From positions 62,001 to 126,000 of the forward strand of contig NZ_BIXY01000004.1 of the NCBI RefSeq assembly GCF_008326305.1: a DNA stretch of 64,000 nucleotides. The letters are read 5' to 3'. Origin of the DNA: Dictyobacter arantiisoli. Its GTDB lineage: Bacteria > Chloroflexota > Ktedonobacteria > Ktedonobacterales > Ktedonobacteraceae. The position numbers and the translations under genes were made by a program. Positions 10,518 through 24,877 of the stretch are shown in pieces (position 1 is the first letter of the stretch; every line of letters starts with the position of its first letter). The notes under the pieces were generated by a model. It worked only from the letters and a program-made list of their open reading frames with translations, was not told where the DNA came from and searched no databases.

Positions 10518-11248
10518 TGTTTGAGACATTATTAGAATTAACTAATGCCAGTCATGATTCTAGAGCTGGATCTGCTCTCCGGATCGCATCTACGTTTTAT
10601 TCGGTATGATTAGACCTTTTAATAAAGTGTTTGATTCCCATGGCCTCCATGGTCTCTGTGCATGAGTTTTCGCACCTGCTGGCAGGCGCGCCGGCGCCTG
10701 CCAGCAGGTGAGCAGCAAGATCCCGATGGTGATGGGAATCAAACACTTTGTATAAGCTTTCAGGTAAGGAAATTCGTTCTCAAATTTTGTATTTTTGGAT
10801 ATAATAGTAATAAAATCGTTTTGAAATAGAAAAGCAACAAATTATCATTGGGATAGCTGGAGTAAGCAAACAAAGAAATTGCGGGGCGGAATTGGTATGA
10901 TGAAATATTGATGATTTGAAAATCATATGGTATCTTCACACATTAAGGGAAAAGATACCATAGCTCTCTTGTAGCTATTTATCTCTAGCTGAGCAATGAG
11001 CTGTGCCCACCCGCCTGTGTGCCAGTCGGTCGGATGAGTAGCTGAATACGTTATTAGCCACATTGTACTAGTAAATAGGCCGCTAGTGATAAATAACGTC
11101 CATAAAGCGAATACTATATAGAGCATGCTGTAGATACTTAGCGTAGAATGGAGCTCAGGCAGCCAGTAGCTCCCAAATCTTTTCCTGCATAAGTTGAAAA
11201 TTGTGGCGTGCAATGCAGGTATGGACCCGGAACAGAGGAGGGTGCGGC
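10518..11248. other. Intergenic region with a nested palindrome
   Basis: No supported gene lies in this stretch. It holds the 126-bp nested palindrome described separately, then AT-rich DNA (10760-10930), then the leader of the large regulator with a good AGAGGAGG site just before 11249. A 96-residue minus-strand frame here has a hydrophobic stretch but no ribosome-binding site. Confidence 0.5.
10624..10749. repeat. Nested palindromic element
   Basis: Outer perfect 17-bp arms at 10624-10640 (AAAGTGTTTGATTCCCA) and 10733-10749 enclose a second, GC-rich perfect 17-bp inverted repeat at 10673-10689 and 10694-10710 (CACCTGCTGGCAGGCGC) with a 4-base loop. It follows the YjbQ stop by about 100 bases. 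It may be a small non-autonomous element or a transcription-end structure. It has no T-run. Confidence 0.8.
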
Positions 11249-14200
11249 ATGACGCAGCCGAGCAAGATCACCTACCATCAACAAGTGACATATTGTGGGA
11301 AGCCACGTTGTCGCAGGTGTCAAGAAGGAATTGGTCATGGGCCCTATTGGTATGCCTATCAGACCATCGATGGACGGACTACGCGTAAGTATATCGGCAA
11401 GCATCTTCCTCCCGATGTGCAGGCGTCGTTGGATACACCATCTATCACCACAGGAGATAGTGCTATGGCGTCAAACATCTCTACGCTTTCGTCTCGCATC
11501 TCGCGTTCAACATCGGGTGTCGATGGAGAGAATGTGGTGCTGCGTATCTCGACTCTCGGGCAGTTTCGCCTGGAGCAACGGGATCAGACACGTAGCCGTC
11601 AGAAAAAGCGGAACGATTGGAGTGTGGTGAATGATACTGCCTGGCAGAAGCGTTCTGCGCGTGCCTTGCTGGCTTATCTGATTTGCTGTCCCGGGCGTAG
11701 CGCGAATCGCTCTCAGGCGCTGGTGGCGCTCTGGCCCAACGACGATTTGAATGTCGCTAACGGTAAATTAAACGACGCCCTTACTTCTCTGCGCCGTGCC
11801 CTTGGGCATCCCTCCGTCAAGGCTGATCAGAAGACGCCACCGACCACCAGTGAGCGCCTTTTGACAGATGGGGACTGGTTTACCCTGGCCGGCCAGAAGC
11901 ATATCTGGATTGATATCGACGAATTCGAACGTTTAACTGCTCAAATCGAGCAAGCTGACGATCAACTCCCCGACTATGAGGACGTGCTCCAGCATGCCAT
12001 CGCGCTCTATCATGGTGATTTTTTGCCTGAGGAACGCACGGCTGAATGGTCGACGGCGTTGCGGCAACGCTTGCGCCGGAAGTGGGCCGATTTGCTGTTG
12101 AAATCGTCCAGCCTGTATATCACACGTAAGGATTATACCAACGCGATCAATGTCTTAAATAATTTGCTGATCAAAGATCCAACCAATGAACTGGCGATTC
12201 AGCAGTTGATTAGAGTTCTGATCCATCAGCGACGGCGCGTCGAAGCCATTCAAGCGTATCGAAGTTTTGCCGATACGTTGCAGCGTGATTATAAAGCGCA
12301 TCCTTCCATCGAGACGCGCGCCCTGTATGATGCGATCCGTTCAGGGCGGACGCTCGATATTCAGGCATTGACAGATGCTACTGCCCCGTTACCCCTGGAA
12401 GAGGCTGAAGAGCGTGAGAAACCTCGCCCCTCCTCAAAAGAGGAAGCGCGTGCGCATCACCTTGTGATGCCTCTGCCATCCAGCGCGCAGATTGGACGCC
12501 GCCATCATAGTCCTCTCGTCGGACGTGATACCGAGTTGCAGATGATGCGCGCCCTCTTGCGACAGATTGAGCAGAATGCGCGTTTACAAATGGTCGGTTC
12601 GCGTCGCCTGTCCGGTATTCCATTGGATACCCAGCGGCAGCCGCAACTGCTCTTGCTTAAAGGGGGTGTGGGGATTGGCAAGACGCGTCTGGCGGAGGAA
12701 TTGGGGCGCGACGCCCAGCACAATGGTTGGAACATTGTCTGGAACCGTGTCTATCAACAGGAGAGTGGTATCCCCTATCGTGTCTGGATCGAGGCTCTGC
12801 GTAAGATTTTGATCGCTGAATCCAGCGTGCTCTCCTTACTGAATATTGAGGCGGTACGCGCTCTGGCAACCCTCCCCGGCCTGCTGGATACTCTGCACAC
12901 GGATATCGATGTCAGCCTGTCACCACATATCTTGATGCCTGAGCAGTCCAAATATACGCTCTACACGGCAATCAGCGAGCTTCTCAAGCTAGCCAGTGAG
13001 CATGGACCTCTCTTGATTGTACTGGATGATATTCAGTGGGTGGATGTGAGTAGCTATGAATTATTGGGACATCTGGCCCGCCAATTGACTGGCTATGGAA
13101 TTGCCTTTCTCGCTACCTGTCGCGATGGAGAAGCGTCACTGGCTTCTACGCATGCCTTTGGCCGGCTGATCCTGGAAATGCAGCGCGAGCATACTATCCA
13201 GCCAATCGAGGTGCAGCCTCTTTCGCCTGAGCATATCAAACAGCTTGTCACCAATTTATCGGATGCGGCAGCGGTAACTGATGTATCGGAACATCGGGTA
13301 GAAAATATTCAGCAACGAGCTTCCGGCAATCCACTGTTTGCCGAAGAACTGATTCATGCCCCATCCTCTAACAAGCTGCCTGAGAATGTGATGGAAGCGT
13401 TGAGCTATCACATGAAACGCTTGAGTACACAATGCCACGAGCTGCTGATTCATGCATCGATCCTGGGGGGCTCTTTTGAAATGCCAGTCTTGTGCGCACT
13501 GGAAACGGGCTCTGAAATTGATGAGGACGATTCTATGCTCACCTTGATTGAAGAGGCGCTCAAGGAAGGTGTCGTGACAACTGAAGGCAGCGGCACGCGC
13601 ATCACCTATCATTTCTGGCATCCTTTATTGGTGGAATTATTATACGACGATCCTCATTTGTCCCTATTTCGACGCGCCCGTCTGCATCAACGCGCGGCAG
13701 ATGTGATTGTGCGCATTAACCGTGGGCGCGAAGAAGAGGTTGCCGCGACGGTGACACGGCATCTAGAACTGGCTGGAGCCGAGGCGGCGCAGATTGCCTA
13801 TTATGCTGAACTGGCTGGAAATAGCGCCTATCGTGTCTCTGCCTTTGCTGAGGCCGCCTCCTATTATCAAAAGGCGGTCGGCTATCTCGAAAAAGAAGGT
13901 GCGCATGAAACTCCTTCTTATCTGATGCTGCTGGAGCGTCTGGCGGAATGTGAGATTACCAGCGATGGTGATTATGCCCAGGCGCGTAAACTGTTTGAAC
14001 GCGTACTGAAGCTGCGCAATCAGATAAAATCTGCGGATGATACCCTGGCTGAAATCCAGATTCAGGCACTGCTCTGGGATCAGATTAGCTGGACGTGGCG
14101 CTATCAAGGCAATATCTGGCAAGCATGGGAGTGTATTGCGCAGGAAGAAAAGCTCTTGCAACAAGCACAGGTCGTCGGAGGGCCAGTACTCTCACGCTTG

Positions 14201-15157
14201 TATTATACGCAGAGCAATCTTTATAATCTGGAAGGTCACTGTGAACAGGCTTTACAAATGGCACAGCAGGCGCTTACCCTCTTTGAAGCTGATCAGAAAC
14301 AGCGTTCGTTACCTGTAATCACAGGACGGCAGCTCTGCAAAACGCAGACGCAGCGTATTATTGAGGGTTATCCCGATCTACTGGGTCGCTTACAGCGCCA
14401 TGTGGGTGCAGTGGCAGTCTTTATGGGCCAGCTTCGCCAGGCTCTGGATTATCAGAACCGCGCCCTTGTCTTTTCGGAACAGTATAAAGAATTGCGGCAG
14501 ATTGCGCATGTTTCCTCAAATATCGGTTTTATTTATATTAAGATGGCTGATTATAAACAGGCGCAGGCAGTACTTCGGCGCGCTTTGCATCTGGCTGAAA
14601 GCGTCGGTGATCGAGCATTGTTATCGCTTGTTCTGAGCAATCTGGGCGAGTTAGATGCCGCCCAGGGCAATTTAGCGCAAGCTGAAGAGCAATATCGCAA
14701 GGCATTAGAACTGAAAGGCGATCCCGAATATACCAGCCGTTGGAATGCTGGCCTGGCTGGCGTGCTCCAGGCGCAGGGAAATTTGCGGCAGGCCACTACC
14801 TGTGTCTGTCAGGCCTTTTATGTCGCACGCTCCATGCAGAATGCTCCCTGTATGGGACAGGCATTAGTGGCGCTGGGCAACATACGTATTGCGCAGGCGC
14901 AGGATAGCACGATCAGCCAGCAGAAGCAATCCCGCTTGCTGGTTCTGGCACAAAAAGATATTCAATGGGCGCTGGCGTTAAAGGTGGAGGCTGAGACACG
15001 GATGAAAGGCAATCTGGCTCTGGCGCTGGTGGCGGCCTTACAGGGAAAAAGTCAGCAGGCGAGACAGGGATTCGAAGAGGTGTGCGCAGAGGCGCAGGGC
15101 TGCGAGTACATGCAGATTGTCACACATGCACAGGAACTCTTAGCGCGCTATTGCTAG
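11249..15157 (+). CDS. Large BTAD/STAND ATPase/TPR transcriptional regulator with Cys-rich N-terminus
   Basis: A 1302-residue regulator of the SARP/AfsR-like or MalT-like type. Residues 1-55 form an unusual short module with YCGKPRCRRCQEG, GHGPYWYAYQ and YIGKHL, resembling the CGKPxCRxC...HGPYWY motif of DUF6788-type proteins and probably binding zinc. A winged-helix DNA-binding domain (ALVALWPNDDLN, LNDALTSLRRAL) and a BTAD helical domain reach about residue 340. A STAND-class ATPase has the P-loop GVGIGKT with Lys478 and Walker B IVLDDIQW. The last 450 residues are TPR units. The start at 11249 is set by AGAGGAGG seven bases upstream. It is monocistronic and converges on a PP2C gene. The target genes and signal are unknown. 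Confidence 0.88.
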   Translation: MTQPSKITYHQQVTYCGKPRCRRCQEGIGHGPYWYAYQTIDGRTTRKYIGKHLPPDVQASLDTPSITTGDSAMASNISTLSSRISRSTSGVDGENVVLRISTLGQFRLEQRDQTRSRQKKRNDWSVVNDTAWQKRSARALLAYLICCPGRSANRSQALVALWPNDDLNVANGKLNDALTSLRRALGHPSVKADQKTPPTTSERLLTDGDWFTLAGQKHIWIDIDEFERLTAQIEQADDQLPDYEDVLQHAIALYHGDFLPEERTAEWSTALRQRLRRKWADLLLKSSSLYITRKDYTNAINVLNNLLIKDPTNELAIQQLIRVLIHQRRRVEAIQAYRSFADTLQRDYKAHPSIETRALYDAIRSGRTLDIQALTDATAPLPLEEAEEREKPRPSSKEEARAHHLVMPLPSSAQIGRRHHSPLVGRDTELQMMRALLRQIEQNARLQMVGSRRLSGIPLDTQRQPQLLLLKGGVGIGKTRLAEELGRDAQHNGWNIVWNRVYQQESGIPYRVWIEALRKILIAESSVLSLLNIEAVRALATLPGLLDTLHTDIDVSLSPHILMPEQSKYTLYTAISELLKLASEHGPLLIVLDDIQWVDVSSYELLGHLARQLTGYGIAFLATCRDGEASLASTHAFGRLILEMQREHTIQPIEVQPLSPEHIKQLVTNLSDAAAVTDVSEHRVENIQQRASGNPLFAEELIHAPSSNKLPENVMEALSYHMKRLSTQCHELLIHASILGGSFEMPVLCALETGSEIDEDDSMLTLIEEALKEGVVTTEGSGTRITYHFWHPLLVELLYDDPHLSLFRRARLHQRAADVIVRINRGREEEVAATVTRHLELAGAEAAQIAYYAELAGNSAYRVSAFAEAASYYQKAVGYLEKEGAHETPSYLMLLERLAECEITSDGDYAQARKLFERVLKLRNQIKSADDTLAEIQIQALLWDQISWTWRYQGNIWQAWECIAQEEKLLQQAQVVGGPVLSRLYYTQSNLYNLEGHCEQALQMAQQALTLFEADQKQRSLPVITGRQLCKTQTQRIIEGYPDLLGRLQRHVGAVAVFMGQLRQALDYQNRALVFSEQYKELRQIAHVSSNIGFIYIKMADYKQAQAVLRRALHLAESVGDRALLSLVLSNLGELDAAQGNLAQAEEQYRKALELKGDPEYTSRWNAGLAGVLQAQGNLRQATTCVCQAFYVARSMQNAPCMGQALVALGNIRIAQAQDSTISQQKQSRLLVLAQKDIQWALALKVEAETRMKGNLALALVAALQGKSQQARQGFEEVCAEAQGCEYMQIVTHAQELLARYC

Positions 15158-18090: not shown

Positions 18091-19587
18091 ATGAAAAAAA
18101 TGAAGGTAGTAGCGAGTACCGCATTCGCGTTGAATACATTTCTCTTTGGCTCATATTATTCGGTTGCCAAAGCGATGCTGGGACGGGTTGATCCTATTGT
18201 ATTCACTTTTTTCACTATGATGACTCTGGTTCCACCAGCAGTCTTTATCATTGCTTTTTCCTGGCGTCATATGACGCGCGATGCGGTGAAGAGCGGTTTC
18301 TTGCTGGGGAGTTGTTTATGCCTGGGCTTGTTTTCGCTAGCGGTTGCCCTGAAGTATAACAGCGCGACCGGTACTGCGTTCTTTCCCTCGCTGAATGGCT
18401 TGCTGGCGGCGATTTTTACCTGGCGTTTCTTGCGCCAGCCGATTTCAAAAGCAACCTGGTTTGCTGGGATTGTCTCGGTTAGTGGCGCGATTTTGCTGAT
18501 GGTGAACTCATCGATGGGTGGGACCAGGGGGGCGCTGATCGCGTTTATCGGTGGCATGCTGTGTACCTTCTATATCTTTCTGGCGGATCACGAGCAGAAG
18601 GACCCATCTGTATACTGGCCGCTTTTCGGGGTTGAGTTATTGACGATGGCGATCTGGGCCAACTTGATTGCTTTGCTCTTTGGCGATTGGACGCTGGTTC
18701 ATTTCGAACTACCTGCAGATGTCGGGGTAGTTCTTTACATTGGCCTGGGAACGATCTTATTGCCAACTCTGTTCACAGTGCTCTTACAGAAATATATTTC
18801 GCCAGTGACGGTCTCATTTATCTCAATTCTAGAGCCTATCTTTGGCGCAATCGTGGCGTATCTCTATCTGCACGAGGTGTTACCGTTAGATGGCTATCTG
18901 GGTGGCTTGCTGGTTGTTACTGGTGTATTGATCCATACCTGGGGCACGGTCGAGCGACCAGCTCAGAGGCGGGCAGTACGGCGGCAGCGCGATCTGGCGA
19001 ATCAGCAGTTGCGTACATCATGGTTTGTCGAGTTTTTATATCCAATGTTGTGCTGTATCTTTGGAGCTCTGCTCGTCTTCAAGTCGGGTGGTTTCCCACC
19101 CCCCGTCTGGCATGATCTTTTCCGCATGTGGCCGCAGTTGCCCGCATCATTGCAGGATGGGCGGCGCATGGAGACAGTGTTTTTACTGGCGCAATCCGCT
19201 TCCTGGGTGCTGGCCTGGAGTGCGGTGGTCATTATTGGCGGATTGGTGTTTTATCGCCTTTGCAACAGATTATTTACGGCTTCAGCCCCCAGCGTTGAAT
19301 TAGATCTGCGTACGATGCGGCAGATGGGTTATACCCCCCATCTCGTTACTCCGACTCCTCCAGTCGGACGCAAGACGATAGAGCTGGATTATGGACAGGA
19401 ATGGGAGTTGGATGCTCCACGTCGTCAGCATCGCCGTGTGCGTCTGGCGCATATTGAACCGGCCGATGATCAAATATTTGAGGCTCCTACACATGTTCCC
19501 CATCGACGTACCGTGGTGACACAGAAGCAAGAGCGGCGCTGGTACGCTGGGAGAGATAAGGAAGTCATGGAAGCGAGGAAACAATGA
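18091..19587 (+). CDS. EamA/DMT-family transporter with extra C-terminal membrane hairpin
   Basis: A 498-residue protein. Residues 1 to about 290 are ten hydrophobic helices arranged as two EamA repeats, the drug/metabolite transporter fold that exports small molecules. The second repeat carries the usual LEPIFGAIVAYLYLHE motif. Unlike normal members of about 300 residues, it continues with two more helices (about 310-335 and 365-390). The loop between them holds GGFPPPVW...WPQLP near residue 333. A charged, disordered cytoplasmic tail of about 100 residues follows. The same hairpin begins the PP2C protein at 22832. ATG 18091 is favoured over a TTG ten codons upstream by its SD. The stop overlaps the next start (ATGA), so translation is coupled. 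The substrate is unknown. Confidence 0.85.
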   Translation: MKKMKVVASTAFALNTFLFGSYYSVAKAMLGRVDPIVFTFFTMMTLVPPAVFIIAFSWRHMTRDAVKSGFLLGSCLCLGLFSLAVALKYNSATGTAFFPSLNGLLAAIFTWRFLRQPISKATWFAGIVSVSGAILLMVNSSMGGTRGALIAFIGGMLCTFYIFLADHEQKDPSVYWPLFGVELLTMAIWANLIALLFGDWTLVHFELPADVGVVLYIGLGTILLPTLFTVLLQKYISPVTVSFISILEPIFGAIVAYLYLHEVLPLDGYLGGLLVVTGVLIHTWGTVERPAQRRAVRRQRDLANQQLRTSWFVEFLYPMLCCIFGALLVFKSGGFPPPVWHDLFRMWPQLPASLQDGRRMETVFLLAQSASWVLAWSAVVIIGGLVFYRLCNRLFTASAPSVELDLRTMRQMGYTPHLVTPTPPVGRKTIELDYGQEWELDAPRRQHRRVRLAHIEPADDQIFEAPTHVPHRRTVVTQKQERRWYAGRDKEVMEARKQ

Positions 19588-21551
19588 AGAAAAATGACTC
19601 AGGTGATTTCAGTGTGTTTTATATTGAGCCCGGGGATGAGAAGGCAACGCTTTTCCCTATCCTCTCAGGACAGCAGAAGCCGGTTGTATTAATGCTGGCC
19701 GATGGAGCACGTGCTATCCAGCGTCCTGATGATTTTACAGCACTCAAGCATCTGAAGCGACAGTATAATCTGACGCTCATTTTTGTTATTGAGCATAGTG
19801 CCCAGTTGAAGCAGCTAGCAATAAAAAATGGTTTTCCTGTCTATGAGTCAATGGAGCAGTTAATAGATGCCGTCCGAGGAGGACAGGCTGCGCGCCAACG
19901 CTCATTAAACCGTTCTAATACAGCTTCTCTGGCACCTGAGATATCTACCAGAACAACACGCCCGTTGCCCTCTGACCAAACGACTGGTGGCGAATCCGCA
20001 CAACCTGTAGCGGCTCCTGGATTGCCTTTGCGACCAGCACCGGTGTTTGTACCGCTGCCTCAGGCGCAGAATCAGCCTCACTATATGTCCCAGCCTTCGG
20101 TCTCAGCTGAACAGAAACCTCTGCTGGCTTTTGATACCCAGGCTACTCAAGCGTCAAATCAATTTACTCCAGCTCCAGGTCAGTTGCATCGCGAAGTGCC
20201 TTTTGCCCCTCGCATTAGTCCTGACCTTTCCGTGCAACCGCCGCCTCCTGAGCCCATCCAACCAGCACCACCAGCTCAGGCCCGCGTGCATACAAAGCCT
20301 GTTTCCAAACTCCTGGCATTTGTGACTATCGCCCTTATTCTGGGTATTCTTGGCTCATTTCTAGTTTTCTCCCGCTCTTTTACCCCTGGTATCGCTGCGA
20401 AGCCAACTCCATCTGCACCGGCGGCGGTTGGACGCGTAACCTTTACCAGTAGCGGACAGGTCAATGAAACGAGTAGTCAGGGAATCGCTGATCAGGTTGT
20501 GCTGGATCTCCATGGCATTCCTAATCCAGCTGCTAACAAGAAATATTATGCCTGGTTGCTGGCGGATAAGAGCCAGAGTGATCCTATGTCGATTGCGCTG
20601 GGAGCGCTCACCCTTACTGGAGGGAAAGCTCATCTGCAGTTTGCCGGAGATAATCAGCATTCTAATCTGCTCGCGCTGACCAGTCGCATATTGATTACCG
20701 AGGAGGATGCCCATGTCCCACCTATCTCTCCCTCCTTGAATACGCAGGATTGGCGCTATTATGGCGAATTTTCCGCCACGCCGATTCCCGCTACGGGTAA
20801 CGCAAAGCCCTATAGCTATCTGGATCATCTGCGCCATCTATTGTCCTCTGATCCTACCCTGGAGCAGATGGAGTTGCCGGGTGGATTGAACAACTGGCTG
20901 TATCGCAATACCAGCAAGCTTGTTGAGTGGACGGGTAGCATGCGAGAGACATGGGAAAATACAAAGGATACGGCCTTTATTCAGCGCCAGACCTTGCGGG
21001 TGCTGGCTTATCTGGATGGCACGACCTTCCTGTATAAAGATTTACCGGCTAAATCGCCGCTCTTAGTCAATGAGCGCCTGGCCCGCATCGGTTTGTTGGA
21101 TGTGAATGGCCCAGATCAATTGCCTCCCGACTATATGGATCATGTGAATAAGCATTTACGTGGCCTGTTGCAGGCGTCAAATCCGCCCGCAGGTCTGCGC
21201 CAGCAGGTAACGGATCTCACGGTTGCTATGGACAATATTGAGCTCTGGCTGACGCAAGTCCGCAGTGATGCTCAGAAACTTATGAAAATGACCCCTGCCC
21301 AAATGCGCCAGCCGGTAACGCTCAGTATTATTAATGACATGATTGACAATGCCAACCGTGCTTTTGCTGGTCAGGCTGATCCATCGACGGGCCAGACACG
21401 CGAGGGGGTGAGTTGGCTGCATGATCATATGCAGTTGCTGGCAACGCTGGACTTAAAGCCTATTTCGGCAAAGATGAGTAGCGATATTCCACAGATCCTG
21501 CCCAATCAAGTCAATGGCAGGGTAATGGTCCCATTTGAGGTAAAAAGATGA
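19584..21551 (+). CDS. Membrane protein with RskA-like (anti-sigma-K) extracytoplasmic domain
   Basis: A 655-residue protein with mixed modules. Residues 1-110 form a soluble alpha/beta domain (PVVLMLADGARAI, LTLIFVIEH, KNGFPVYES) that I do not recognise. Residues 110-240 are proline- and glutamine-rich. One membrane helix lies at about 243-265. Outside it, residues 280-405 match the anti-sigma-K factor C-terminal pattern (VVLDLHGIPNP, YYAWLLAD, RILITEED). The final 250 residues are helical and unassigned. It starts inside the stop of the EamA gene. No sigma factor and no zinc anti-sigma motif are nearby, so calling it an anti-sigma factor would go too far. A cell-surface sensing or adaptor role is inferred. 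Confidence 0.75.
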   Translation: MKKNDSGDFSVFYIEPGDEKATLFPILSGQQKPVVLMLADGARAIQRPDDFTALKHLKRQYNLTLIFVIEHSAQLKQLAIKNGFPVYESMEQLIDAVRGGQAARQRSLNRSNTASLAPEISTRTTRPLPSDQTTGGESAQPVAAPGLPLRPAPVFVPLPQAQNQPHYMSQPSVSAEQKPLLAFDTQATQASNQFTPAPGQLHREVPFAPRISPDLSVQPPPPEPIQPAPPAQARVHTKPVSKLLAFVTIALILGILGSFLVFSRSFTPGIAAKPTPSAPAAVGRVTFTSSGQVNETSSQGIADQVVLDLHGIPNPAANKKYYAWLLADKSQSDPMSIALGALTLTGGKAHLQFAGDNQHSNLLALTSRILITEEDAHVPPISPSLNTQDWRYYGEFSATPIPATGNAKPYSYLDHLRHLLSSDPTLEQMELPGGLNNWLYRNTSKLVEWTGSMRETWENTKDTAFIQRQTLRVLAYLDGTTFLYKDLPAKSPLLVNERLARIGLLDVNGPDQLPPDYMDHVNKHLRGLLQASNPPAGLRQQVTDLTVAMDNIELWLTQVRSDAQKLMKMTPAQMRQPVTLSIINDMIDNANRAFAGQADPSTGQTREGVSWLHDHMQLLATLDLKPISAKMSSDIPQILPNQVNGRVMVPFEVKR

Positions 21552-21662
21552 TGGAATGGCAAAAATTGGATACACTTACAACTTTGTATGAATATTTACC
21601 ATCATTGTCATTGTCTATTATTGTCGCTGAGTGTGTGCACAGTACGAGGGGAGCGTGAGCAT

Positions 21663-22493
21663 ATGAACAGGCGTTTTATTCTAATAACGTTGCTGGCTCT
21701 CCTGCTGATTGGTGGTTTTGTAGCGAACACCAATGCCCACGCGATCCAATCAGCTTTGATAGTACCAATGGCAATACCTGGGAAGCAGCCTACTCATAGC
21801 ATCGCCTCGAGCACAAGTACGCCGACGCAGAAGACGCCGGGAAAGATTCAGCCCACAGGCCAGAATCGAGGAACTATGCAGATAGCATCAACTCCGCTAC
21901 CAACCAATATCCTGGCCCAGGATACTTTTCAACGCAATAATCAACCGTTATGGGGCCTGGCAACCGATGGCCGGAGCTGGGATGGAGATGCGAATACATC
22001 TCAAGCCTTCTCGATTAATGCAGCGACGGGACAGGTGTCCAACGCCCATGGAACGGTCAACGCCATTCTCGGACCGAGTAGCGACAATGTGGATGTCCAG
22101 GCCAATGGGATGGTTAATCAATTCGGCAATGGTGTCAATATGGGAGTGGTTTTGCGCTGGAGCAACGCCCAAAACTGGTATAAAGCCTTGATCGATGGTA
22201 ACCACTTGAGCATTCTCAAGCGCGTTAATGGTGCCTCTACCCAGGTACAGGCTGTCCCTTTCCATGCTAAAGCCGGGCAGGTATATACCCTCCGCTTTCA
22301 GGCAATTGGAGTGATGTTATTCGCGAAAGTCTGGCCTCTGAATACCCAGGAGCCCGCCCAGTGGATGATTACCGTCTCTGATTCAGCATTGAAAGATGGG
22401 AAGTCAGGTTTTCGCTTTGTTCTGCAGCCGACAACGGTTATCAATATGACCTCGTTTCAGGTCACGCCCGCCACTATGGGAACTGACCTGTAG
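21663..22493 (+). CDS. Secreted beta-sandwich (concanavalin-like) protein
   Basis: A 276-residue exported protein. A typical signal peptide (MNRRFILITL... ending TNAHA) takes up the first 27 residues. A Thr/Pro/Gln-rich linker runs to about residue 80. The remainder is a single beta-rich domain (DTFQRNNQPLWG, GVVLRWSNAQNWYK, YTLRFQAIGVMLFAKVW) that resembles LamG/ConA-like carbohydrate-binding folds fused to many bacterial surface enzymes. No catalytic module is attached. ATG 21663 with GAGGGGA upstream is preferred over an in-frame ATG 75 bases earlier. It sits between the RskA-like gene and the membrane PP2C gene, suggesting a surface ligand or wall contact for that set; this is inference. 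Confidence 0.75.
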   Translation: MNRRFILITLLALLLIGGFVANTNAHAIQSALIVPMAIPGKQPTHSIASSTSTPTQKTPGKIQPTGQNRGTMQIASTPLPTNILAQDTFQRNNQPLWGLATDGRSWDGDANTSQAFSINAATGQVSNAHGTVNAILGPSSDNVDVQANGMVNQFGNGVNMGVVLRWSNAQNWYKALIDGNHLSILKRVNGASTQVQAVPFHAKAGQVYTLRFQAIGVMLFAKVWPLNTQEPAQWMITVSDSALKDGKSGFRFVLQPTTVINMTSFQVTPATMGTDL

Positions 22494-22563
22494 TGAATAA
22501 AGCAAAATGGAGTTGTCTGCGTAGCCGCTAACCAAAGGGGTTGCCAGGGCAGTCCACGCGTAG

Positions 22564-22711
22564 CCCTTAAAAAGGGGTTGCAAGGCCGGTCCGGTCTACC
22601 CGCAGCCCTTAAAAAGGGGTTGCAAGGCCGGTCCGGTCTACCCGCAGCCCTTAAAAAGGGGTTGCAAGGCCGGTCCGGTCTACCCACAGCCCTTAAAAAG
22701 GGGTTGCAAGG
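22564..22711. repeat. Tandem 42-bp repeat, 3.5 copies
   Basis: Units start at 22564, 22606, 22648 and 22690 (the last partial). Each begins CCCTTAAAAAGGGGTTGCAA and ends CTACCCGCAG. A degenerate unit precedes them (from about 22530). CCCTTAAAAAGGGG can form a small hairpin in every unit. The array lies in the gap between the secreted protein and PP2C genes and merges into a family B repeat on its right. Confidence 0.93.
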
Positions 22712-22767
22712 GGACGACAGTCCCATTGCCGGGGTTCGGGGTGTCCCCGAAAACCCCCTTTTCTTCT
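22697..22767 (-). repeat. Repeat family B, locus 1
   Basis: Read on the minus strand this carries GGGGACACCCCGAACCCCGG followed by GGGACTGTCGTCCCC and then TTGCAACCCC. It matches the copies near 24.95 kb and 28.68 kb. The self-complementary parts GGGG-ACA-CCCC and GGGAC/GTCCC suggest stem-loops. Confidence 0.7.
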
Positions 22768-22831
22768 CTTATCCCGTCCGTAGGACGGATTATGTAATAG
22801 AGATTGGATAAATGTAAAGCTGATCTAACAA

Positions 22832-24877
22832 ATGTCTGGATGGGTTATGATGAGTGAGAATTTGAAAGAAGCATACACACAGCACCGTTGGGTGAAGGTC
22901 ATGGCGCTGGTAGCGTTAGGGGTCAGCGCCATCCTCCTGTTTCTTAGCTCAGGAGGTTTTCCGCCCTGGGCCTGGCGTTTCCTGATTCAGGTGCTTCCAC
23001 AACTTCCAGTTCTCTGGCAGGCACAAGGGAGCGCGATCCTGATCCCCCTGATCGGCTTATGCTTGCTTTCGCTATCGCTCCTCATCTTATGGATTGCGAT
23101 AGTGGTTGCAGGTCGGAAGATACTCATGCATCTCTGGAAAGATGTTACTGCCCGCCAGTCATTCGAGGATGATTTACGTGAGGCTGAAGCATTGGCCGAG
23201 CAGGCTGTAGAACAGGATAATATTGCTCTGGAAGTGGAATATGCACAGGCATCCCAGGTGCCTCATGCATCTCATGCATCCATCAGAGCCTCTGCACGAT
23301 CAGCCCCGGCCTCGCGACCCGTACAGCGTCAAACTAAACAATTACTTGAAACGCGTCAGACTTCAGACACTCAGAAGATACAGGCGAATCAGCGGATGCC
23401 AGCAACACAGCCTGTACTGGCGCGTCGGCCAGCGTATGAAGCTCCACGGGCGGTCGGAGATGTACAATTTCCTGGTTTAAGCTATCCAACCCCGCTGCTA
23501 CGCCAGAATATGCCGCGTCAGGATACTGGCTCAGTCATGCTTGCGTCACCATCCAACCCGATTGAGGATCGTGGACAGACCAGCTATGTTCCTGTGTCGA
23601 TCCCACGTCGCCCTGACAGTTCACGTCGCCCTGACAGTTCACGTCGCCCTGACAGTTCACGGCAGCAATTGAGGGTTGTTCCGCCTCCTGTGCAAGAACA
23701 AAGCTTTGAAACGGTGGAGTTCGAAGATCCAGATGAAATGTTCCTGGATGAGCAGGAGGATTTGCCGATTGCTCGTTCACGGCATGATATTGCCAGGGAA
23801 GATCTTGAGGATTCTACTGAAGATGGGTCTGAGGTAGATGTCTGGGAAACGCATCCAGGCGACTGGGAGGATGAATTCGATATTACCCAATATGAACTCC
23901 TTGAGGAATGGAATGAGGAAGATCAGCAACTCCCTCTTCCTGACGTGCAGGAGGAGGACGGCAACGTAGATGATAGCGATGAGCTTGAGTTTGACCTGCA
24001 GTCAATCCCCACCCCTGATGAGCCACCCGCTCCAGTAGCTGAAGAGGATGCTTCGTTACGCTTCGTGGTGGGAATCGGGCTTGATCCAGGTTTGAAGCGC
24101 CGCGATGCTCCGAATGAGGATAGCTTGTTTGCCTTTCAGGGTATGCGTGTCACGGATGAAGGTTCCAATCCTGCCGGTCTGTTTATGGTTGCCGATGGGA
24201 TGGGCGGACATGCCAATGGGCGTGAGGCCAGTCGAACCGCCATCCATATGACCAGCGATGTGATTGTGCCTGCCTTGTTGCGCGATGTCAGTGGCAATAC
24301 TGCTAAAGAAGAAAACACTTTGTTCATGGACATGTTGAAAGATGGTATCCATCGCGCGAATCTGGCGCTCTATCGGCGCAATCGTGAGCTGGCACCTAAG
24401 ATGATGGGGACTACTATTACTGCGGCCTTGCTGGTTGGCACCACCGCGTATATCGCTAACATCGGGGATAGCCGCACCTATCTCTATCGTCCCTCGGAAG
24501 GCTTGTCGCAGATCACCCACGATCATTCCGTGGTAGCCCGCATGGTTGAGGATGGCATGATCACGCGCGACGACATCTACACGCATCCGCAGCGCAACCA
24601 GATCTATCGCTGTCTGGGAGAGCATGCCTCGGCTGAAATCGATACCTTTATAGTTGATCTGCAAGTTAATGATGTTTTGTTGCTCTGCTCCGATGGTCTG
24701 TGGGAGATGGTGCGCGACTCGGCCCTGGAAAAAGTTCTGGCCTCCTCGGCCCATAATCCTTCCCAGGTCAGCGCGTTACTGGTACAGGCGGCCCTCAATC
24801 ACGGTGGGGTCGACAATATCAGCGTCATCATCATCGGTCTCGCCAGCTCAGAAGATGAGGCCAGCTGGATGTTGTAG
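22832..24877 (+). CDS. Membrane-anchored PP2C-type Ser/Thr phosphatase
   Basis: A 681-residue phosphatase tethered to the membrane. Residues 20-100 make two helices around a loop with GGFPPW at 41-46 and PQLP shortly after, nearly the same hairpin as in the EamA protein of this cluster. Residues 100-405 are disordered, first Arg/Gln-rich, then strongly acidic, and include RRPDSS repeated three times (18-bp DNA repeats at 23606-23659). The PP2C domain (about 410-681) has RRDAPNEDS, FMVADGMGGHANG, MGTTITAALL, IANIGDSRTY, LCSDGLWEMV and GGVDNISVII, with all metal Asp residues. No clear SD precedes the ATG at 22832, and ATGs five and six codons in are alternatives. The active domain faces the cytosol. 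Confidence 0.92.
   Translation: MSGWVMMSENLKEAYTQHRWVKVMALVALGVSAILLFLSSGGFPPWAWRFLIQVLPQLPVLWQAQGSAILIPLIGLCLLSLSLLILWIAIVVAGRKILMHLWKDVTARQSFEDDLREAEALAEQAVEQDNIALEVEYAQASQVPHASHASIRASARSAPASRPVQRQTKQLLETRQTSDTQKIQANQRMPATQPVLARRPAYEAPRAVGDVQFPGLSYPTPLLRQNMPRQDTGSVMLASPSNPIEDRGQTSYVPVSIPRRPDSSRRPDSSRRPDSSRQQLRVVPPPVQEQSFETVEFEDPDEMFLDEQEDLPIARSRHDIAREDLEDSTEDGSEVDVWETHPGDWEDEFDITQYELLEEWNEEDQQLPLPDVQEEDGNVDDSDELEFDLQSIPTPDEPPAPVAEEDASLRFVVGIGLDPGLKRRDAPNEDSLFAFQGMRVTDEGSNPAGLFMVADGMGGHANGREASRTAIHMTSDVIVPALLRDVSGNTAKEENTLFMDMLKDGIHRANLALYRRNRELAPKMMGTTITAALLVGTTAYIANIGDSRTYLYRPSEGLSQITHDHSVVARMVEDGMITRDDIYTHPQRNQIYRCLGEHASAEIDTFIVDLQVNDVLLLCSDGLWEMVRDSALEKVLASSAHNPSQVSALLVQAALNHGGVDNISVIIIGLASSEDEASWML

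Follow-up and report, generated by a model that had tools for sequence, protein, structure and literature searches.

The closest described relatives of the two end genes of the locus analysed here are the EamA/drug-metabolite transporter family (PF00892) and the PP2C phosphatases of the Stp1/PrpC/PstP type (PF00481/PF13672; NF033484). The window, i.e. the whole stretch of 64,000 nucleotides from Dictyobacter arantiisoli, encodes a transporter with two EamA stretches as in PF00892, and the whole protein scored 63 bits against the Pfam cut-off of 28.2. Unlike members of that family, it continues after the 10-TM core with two further TM helices and a tail, and the tail stays in relatives where these helices are missing. 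The phosphatase shares the catalytic domain with the Stp1-type enzymes (PF00481, 58.7 bits; cut-off 20.3), and the usual acidic metal-binding motifs NED, DGMGGH, GDSR and GGVDN (GGxDN) are present in its translation; its score with the Stp1/IreP equivalog model NF033484 was 204.4 bits, under the cut-off of 230. It differs from these models in an N-terminal hairpin, here termed GFPP-W, and a long acidic/proline-rich linker. The features of the locus are as follows.

18091..19587, + strand, EamA (DMT)-type transporter with an extra C-terminal TM hairpin and a cytoplasmic tail, 498 aa (Pfam EamA)
19039..19257, + strand, EamA protein residues 317-389, a GFPP-W hairpin that separates the 10-TM core from the tail (hmmsearch envelope)
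19087..19110, + strand, conserved turn GGFPPPVW of the EamA hairpin, predicted extracytoplasmic (conservation)
19584..21551, + strand, RskA-like membrane protein with a conserved domain at the N-terminus, a single TM near residue 243 and a beta plus helical ectodomain
21588..22493, + strand, small protein with an N-terminal hydrophobic/signal segment (from sequence)
22832..24877, + strand, membrane PP2C with an N-terminal hairpin, a long low-complexity linker and the catalytic domain (Pfam PP2C; motifs from translation)
22904..23131, + strand, PP2C residues 25-100, the GFPP-W hairpin (hmmsearch envelope, profile comparison, AF2)
22952..22975, + strand, conserved turn GGFPPWAW of the PP2C hairpin, predicted extracytoplasmic (conservation)

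The original prediction held that the hairpins of the EamA protein and the PP2C, whose GGFPP starts at residue 333 and residue 41, respectively, are alike, and shuffles, BLASTP and hhalign all agreed with it. BLASTP aligned the two segments with E=5e-7 and the identity of the two sequences was about 25-30%. Their local alignment score was 91, while the highest scores among 5000 plain and 5000 hydrophobicity-class shuffles were 68 and 69, respectively, so that 0/10,000 attained the real score. Separate profiles of the EamA and the PP2C orthologues matched over 69 columns (hhalign probability 98.2%, E 3e-14). In control windows from the EamA core the probability was at most 0.53%, the higher-scoring windows all overlapping the hairpin, and an origin of the hairpin as a repeat of the core was rejected because no core window matched the profile. 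The neighbouring proteins of the window matched neither hairpin. On these comparisons, the two hairpins are near certain to be homologous.

The distribution of the module was analyzed with a 25-sequence hairpin profile in Chloroflexota. Each species was represented by one genome; several of these genomes are incomplete, and all absences rest on this set. All 29 Ktedonobacteraceae genomes gave matches; none was obtained in 371 other Chloroflexota or in 18 genomes from other families of the same order. Even a two-sequence profile picked up the EamA/PP2C pair in most Ktedonobacteraceae genomes. A pattern scan of 84,980 species (GTDB) returned 11 loci, all from Ktedonobacteraceae and including Dictyobacter, Ktedonobacter, Ktedonosporobacter and Ktedonospora; since it used five PP2C hairpins, it is specific to hairpins of the PP2C type. 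The motif G[FWLMV]P[PLH]xxW was kept in 60 of the 64 hairpins. Among 1011 further ORFs, GFPPxxW revealed no unrelated carrier, the single match being the frameshifted EamA gene of G008. The hairpin has a profile match, G-x-P-P-x-x-W and a W in TM2, which we propose as its defining marks. It matched nothing in the PDB, gave no significant match in NCBIfam and no convincing one in Pfam (only stray single members, weakly), and its model resembled no PDB fold at E<0.001. The literature searched for PP2Cs, kinases or T4SS in Ktedonobacteria contained nothing relevant. The hairpin thus appears to be an uncatalogued protein module limited to the Ktedonobacteraceae, a family of soil bacteria.

The idea of a module common to unrelated proteins of one locus was supported, and the module was also found on a third class of proteins, class C. 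Class C proteins consist of the hairpin and a long low-complexity cytoplasmic tail ending in a VFGNPFEGPLPDVF-like sequence, and they matched no Pfam or NCBIfam family. Their hairpins aligned with those of the PP2Cs and the EamA proteins with hhalign probabilities of 98.6% and 95.4%, respectively. In 10 of the 10 loci analysed the class C gene was located directly downstream of a VirB4/TraC-like T4SS ATPase (P-loop_TraG, 81 bits; cut-off 25.8), and CHAP/SLT and PrgI-like proteins were encoded nearby, the PrgI match in L091 (25.6 bits) lying just under the cut-off of 27. The window's own genome carries one such locus (L065).

The original prediction also described the gene order EamA, RskA-like, secreted protein and PP2C, which is seen in the window and is conserved in most of the Ktedonobacteraceae. 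A single contig carries all four genes in that order in the window's genome, its congeners G001, G003 and G004, and G002, G005, G008, G010, G011, G013, G017, G020, G023 and G025. A contig end cuts the EamA gene in G009 and the PP2C gene in G012, the cluster is split over two contigs in G014, and no recognisable secreted gene lies between its neighbours in G015. Exceptions include G006 and G018, where the first three genes are together and the PP2C gene is elsewhere, G022, where the hairpin-bearing EamA gene is apart from the other cluster genes, and the genus g13, where this kind of EamA is absent and a different operon holds the RskA-like and secreted genes. A large AfsR/SARP-like regulator with the N-terminal motif YCGKxxCRxCxxGIGHGPYWYAY was observed 5' of the cluster in several genera (window 11201-15157, L051:3426-7547, L055:1025-4639 and L058:1527-4958). 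An ORF that resembles SpeD (S-adenosylmethionine decarboxylase, by eye) is located directly 5' of EamA in two genera (L049:63-539, L058:5260-5664, L055:4924-5343), a hint of a polyamine-related substrate.

Of the second gene product, the description as a membrane protein stood, while its likeness to RskA is weak by sequence. The window protein had no match in Pfam, including RskA_C (PF10099), and RskA_C was detected only on a kinase paralogue, L107, at 20.5 bits against a cut-off of 29.4. With the receptor Ser/Thr kinases it has in common the ectodomain, which forms the C-terminal part of such kinases in these genomes (L105, L107, L108, L110). It differs from them and from RskA_C proteins in that neither a kinase nor an anti-sigma domain was found, and its ectodomain has an extra helical half. 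The protein therefore looks like a receptor kinase without the kinase. The AF2 model of the ectodomain (window 20409-21503) was confident, with a pLDDT of 89 and a pTM of 0.88, and matched no PDB fold at E<0.001, and it may thus represent an undescribed sensor fold. The secreted protein had no match in Pfam. Its domain was also observed in the larger proteins L100, L101, L102, L103, L104 and L112, as a tandem pair in L100-L104, and behind Vgb_lyase propellers, confirmed in L100, L101 and L112. Between the secreted-protein and PP2C genes there is a 42-bp tandem repeat of about 4 copies (window 22534-22711). Taken together, the kinase-type ectodomain and the PP2C make a role of the locus in Ser/Thr phospho-signalling plausible.

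In the hairpin tree, the EamA hairpins formed one clade, into which the EamA protein L053:6532-8133 also fell, the class C hairpins formed another, and the PP2C hairpins made up the rest. In the tree of PP2C catalytic domains, to which 20 non-hairpin PP2C loci were added, the hairpin PP2Cs grouped as one clade with two nested members lacking a detected hairpin, one a split gene (L079) and the other with a degenerate N-terminus (L153). Clades that follow the carriers suggest that each carrier class most likely gained the module once, early in the Ktedonobacteraceae, and that it did not pass between genes recently. Recent local copying between EamA and PP2C is disfavoured, as the EamA hairpins form their own clade.

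A hairpin PP2C was found in 29/29 genomes, and dispersed second copies occur in addition, e.g. L085 (window's own genome), L066, L067 and L072. A small ORF of about 86-117 aa (LRQQIELELVAMRRGL...) was observed 5' of dispersed hairpin PP2Cs and of the L078 cluster (L085:8610-8960, L066:7235-7564, L078:4132-4389); the L066 copy gave no match in Pfam. The linker of the window PP2C contains a perfect 18-bp tandem repeat of 3.2 copies (window 23604-23661) encoding RRPDSS repeats. EamA hairpins comprised 17 intact ones and the frameshifted one of G008 (Ktedonosporobacter rubrisoli, complete genome). In that genome both hairpin genes are frameshifted within the hairpin, EamA in the loop and PP2C in TM2 (L051:8820-9080 and 11860-12140), which may be error or biology. 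In G006, G013 and G018 (L055, L095, L096), the EamA core is followed directly by the same kind of tail, with its RQMG/RQVG motif, and the hairpin is missing; it is thus a cassette that can be inserted and removed. The trees of the EamA core and the RskA-like protein placed these hairpin-less proteins at two separate positions among hairpin-bearing relatives (G013; G006/G018). Two losses are probably the best reading; separate gains would also fit, the support in the EamA tree being partly weak. Together with the dispersed PP2C L153, which has an N-terminal TM segment and no hairpin match, the two lineages without the EamA hairpin show that some carriers can do without the module.

The conserved part of the module is the turn. 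Among orthologous PP2Cs, the mean pairwise identity between genomes was 0.67 for the turn and the following helix, compared with 0.29 for TM1, 0.48 for TM2 and 0.37 for the single plain TM anchor of the RskA-like protein, a pattern in favour of the docking or sensing character first proposed; the linker (0.26) and catalytic domain (0.62) complete the protein. The turn was the most conserved part in each class (0.88 in cluster PP2Cs, 0.74 in EamA and 0.47 in class C), and less so in the T4SS-linked class and the dispersed PP2C copies. TM1 and TM2 gave 0.28 and 0.42 in EamA and 0.30 and 0.43 in class C, the range over all classes being 0.27-0.30 and 0.42-0.43. The turn would be outside and both hairpin ends cytoplasmic, since a PP2C must be in the cytoplasm to reach phosphoproteins and the helix number of the EamA core is even. 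The AF2 model of the PP2C hairpin showed TM1 as a helix over residues 19-40 that ends in a break at GGFPP; one long helix follows at 46-128, predicted to start at the turn and to continue unbroken across TM2 as far as the linker (mean pLDDT 84.9).

As it is the turn, predicted to be outside, and the beginning of the next helix that are conserved, and not the membrane helices, the hairpin seems to be more than a plain anchor. We tentatively favour, at somewhat under even chances, a family-specific docking or positioning module that one putative partner, shared by all carriers, would read from the outer side of the membrane. A two-TM module of ~75 aa (TM1, turn GGFPPxxW, helix into TM2, both ends cytoplasmic) would have been recruited by three unrelated Ktedonobacteraceae proteins, at the N-terminus of the PP2C, at the core/tail junction of EamA and on the VirB4-adjacent protein. 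Its membrane helices would hold the protein in the membrane, and the near-invariant turn and helix start would form a recognition surface on the outer face. All three carriers could then bind the same envelope or membrane partner, which would bring their cytoplasmic effectors to the same sites in the membrane. The conserved predicted outer face and the T4SS-linked carrier favour such a common partner over a private contact between EamA and PP2C. Against this reading count the dispensability of the module on some carriers, the weaker conservation of the turn in class C and in the dispersed PP2C copies, and the low pTM of the PP2C hairpin model (0.53).

The serious rival is a plain but geometrically constrained anchor, duplicated among Ktedonobacteraceae membrane proteins with no specific partner, its GFPP turn kept for tight folding; we regard it as possible, though less probable. 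An even TM number is topologically neutral, a structural role could account for the conserved P, G and W, the EamA proteins of G006, G013 and G018 keep their tail without the hairpin, and in one dispersed PP2C the hairpin is undetectable. However, conservation is concentrated in the turn and the next helix and not in the TM helices, and the cluster PP2C has retained its hairpin in every one of the 29 genomes.

The original prediction had explained the common hairpin by a joint membrane complex controlled by dephosphorylation. In such a model the EamA and PP2C hairpins would bind each other, and the substrate of the PP2C would be the transporter or else the RskA-like protein. One module in two genes of a conserved four-gene cluster, an ectodomain of Ser/Thr kinases in the RskA-like protein and intact PP2C catalytic motifs would suit such a complex, which is nevertheless unlikely and found no support as the reason for the shared module. 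The PP2C hairpin is present with no EamA match in 8 genomes (some of them incomplete) and with a hairpin-less EamA in 3 (one still in the cluster), the EamA gene of G022 is separated from the rest, and the third carrier sits outside the cluster. In addition, EamA and PP2C hairpin distances showed no excess covariation once core distances were removed (partial r -0.09, permutation p 0.71), a weak test with 13 genomes.

A sensor, whose outside turn and helix bind an envelope ligand (lipid, wall precursor) and alter PP2C activity or transport through TM2 and the continuous cytoplasmic helix, is quite improbable. The predicted unbroken helix (H46-128) and the conservation peak outside the membrane agree with it, but beyond that helix the PP2C linker is long and poorly conserved, which speaks against rigid signal transmission, and class C proteins have no recognised output domain. 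Coincidence of hydrophobic composition and motif, for which the shortness of the invariant motif and the low identity of the pair might be invoked, can be dismissed, since chance similarity is rejected by the shuffles, the profile-profile test with its controls and the recurrence across the family.

A bolder reading, which we consider conceivable and rather doubtful, is a lineage-restricted membrane address tag, by which one putative partner would gather a transporter, a T4SS-linked protein and signalling by the Ser/Thr phosphatase at the same membrane sites. If true, such a tag would link phospho-signalling with secretion in the Ktedonobacteraceae. TM segments are commonly taken as interchangeable anchors, so that a TM module which unrelated proteins of a single bacterial family have in common can easily escape notice; a short conserved turn and helix predicted outside the membrane offer a direct handle for finding a common partner.

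The third carrier places the module beside another described system. The class C loci resemble the VirB4/PrgI-type T4SS loci of monoderm bacteria, in that a PrgI-like protein, its match lying just under the cut-off, a VirB4-like ATPase and a CHAP/SLT protein occur together, and a T4SS-linked protein without a database family thereby gains its first context. Unlike those loci, they encode, right after VirB4, a hairpin protein with the tail motif VFGNPFEGPLPDVF.
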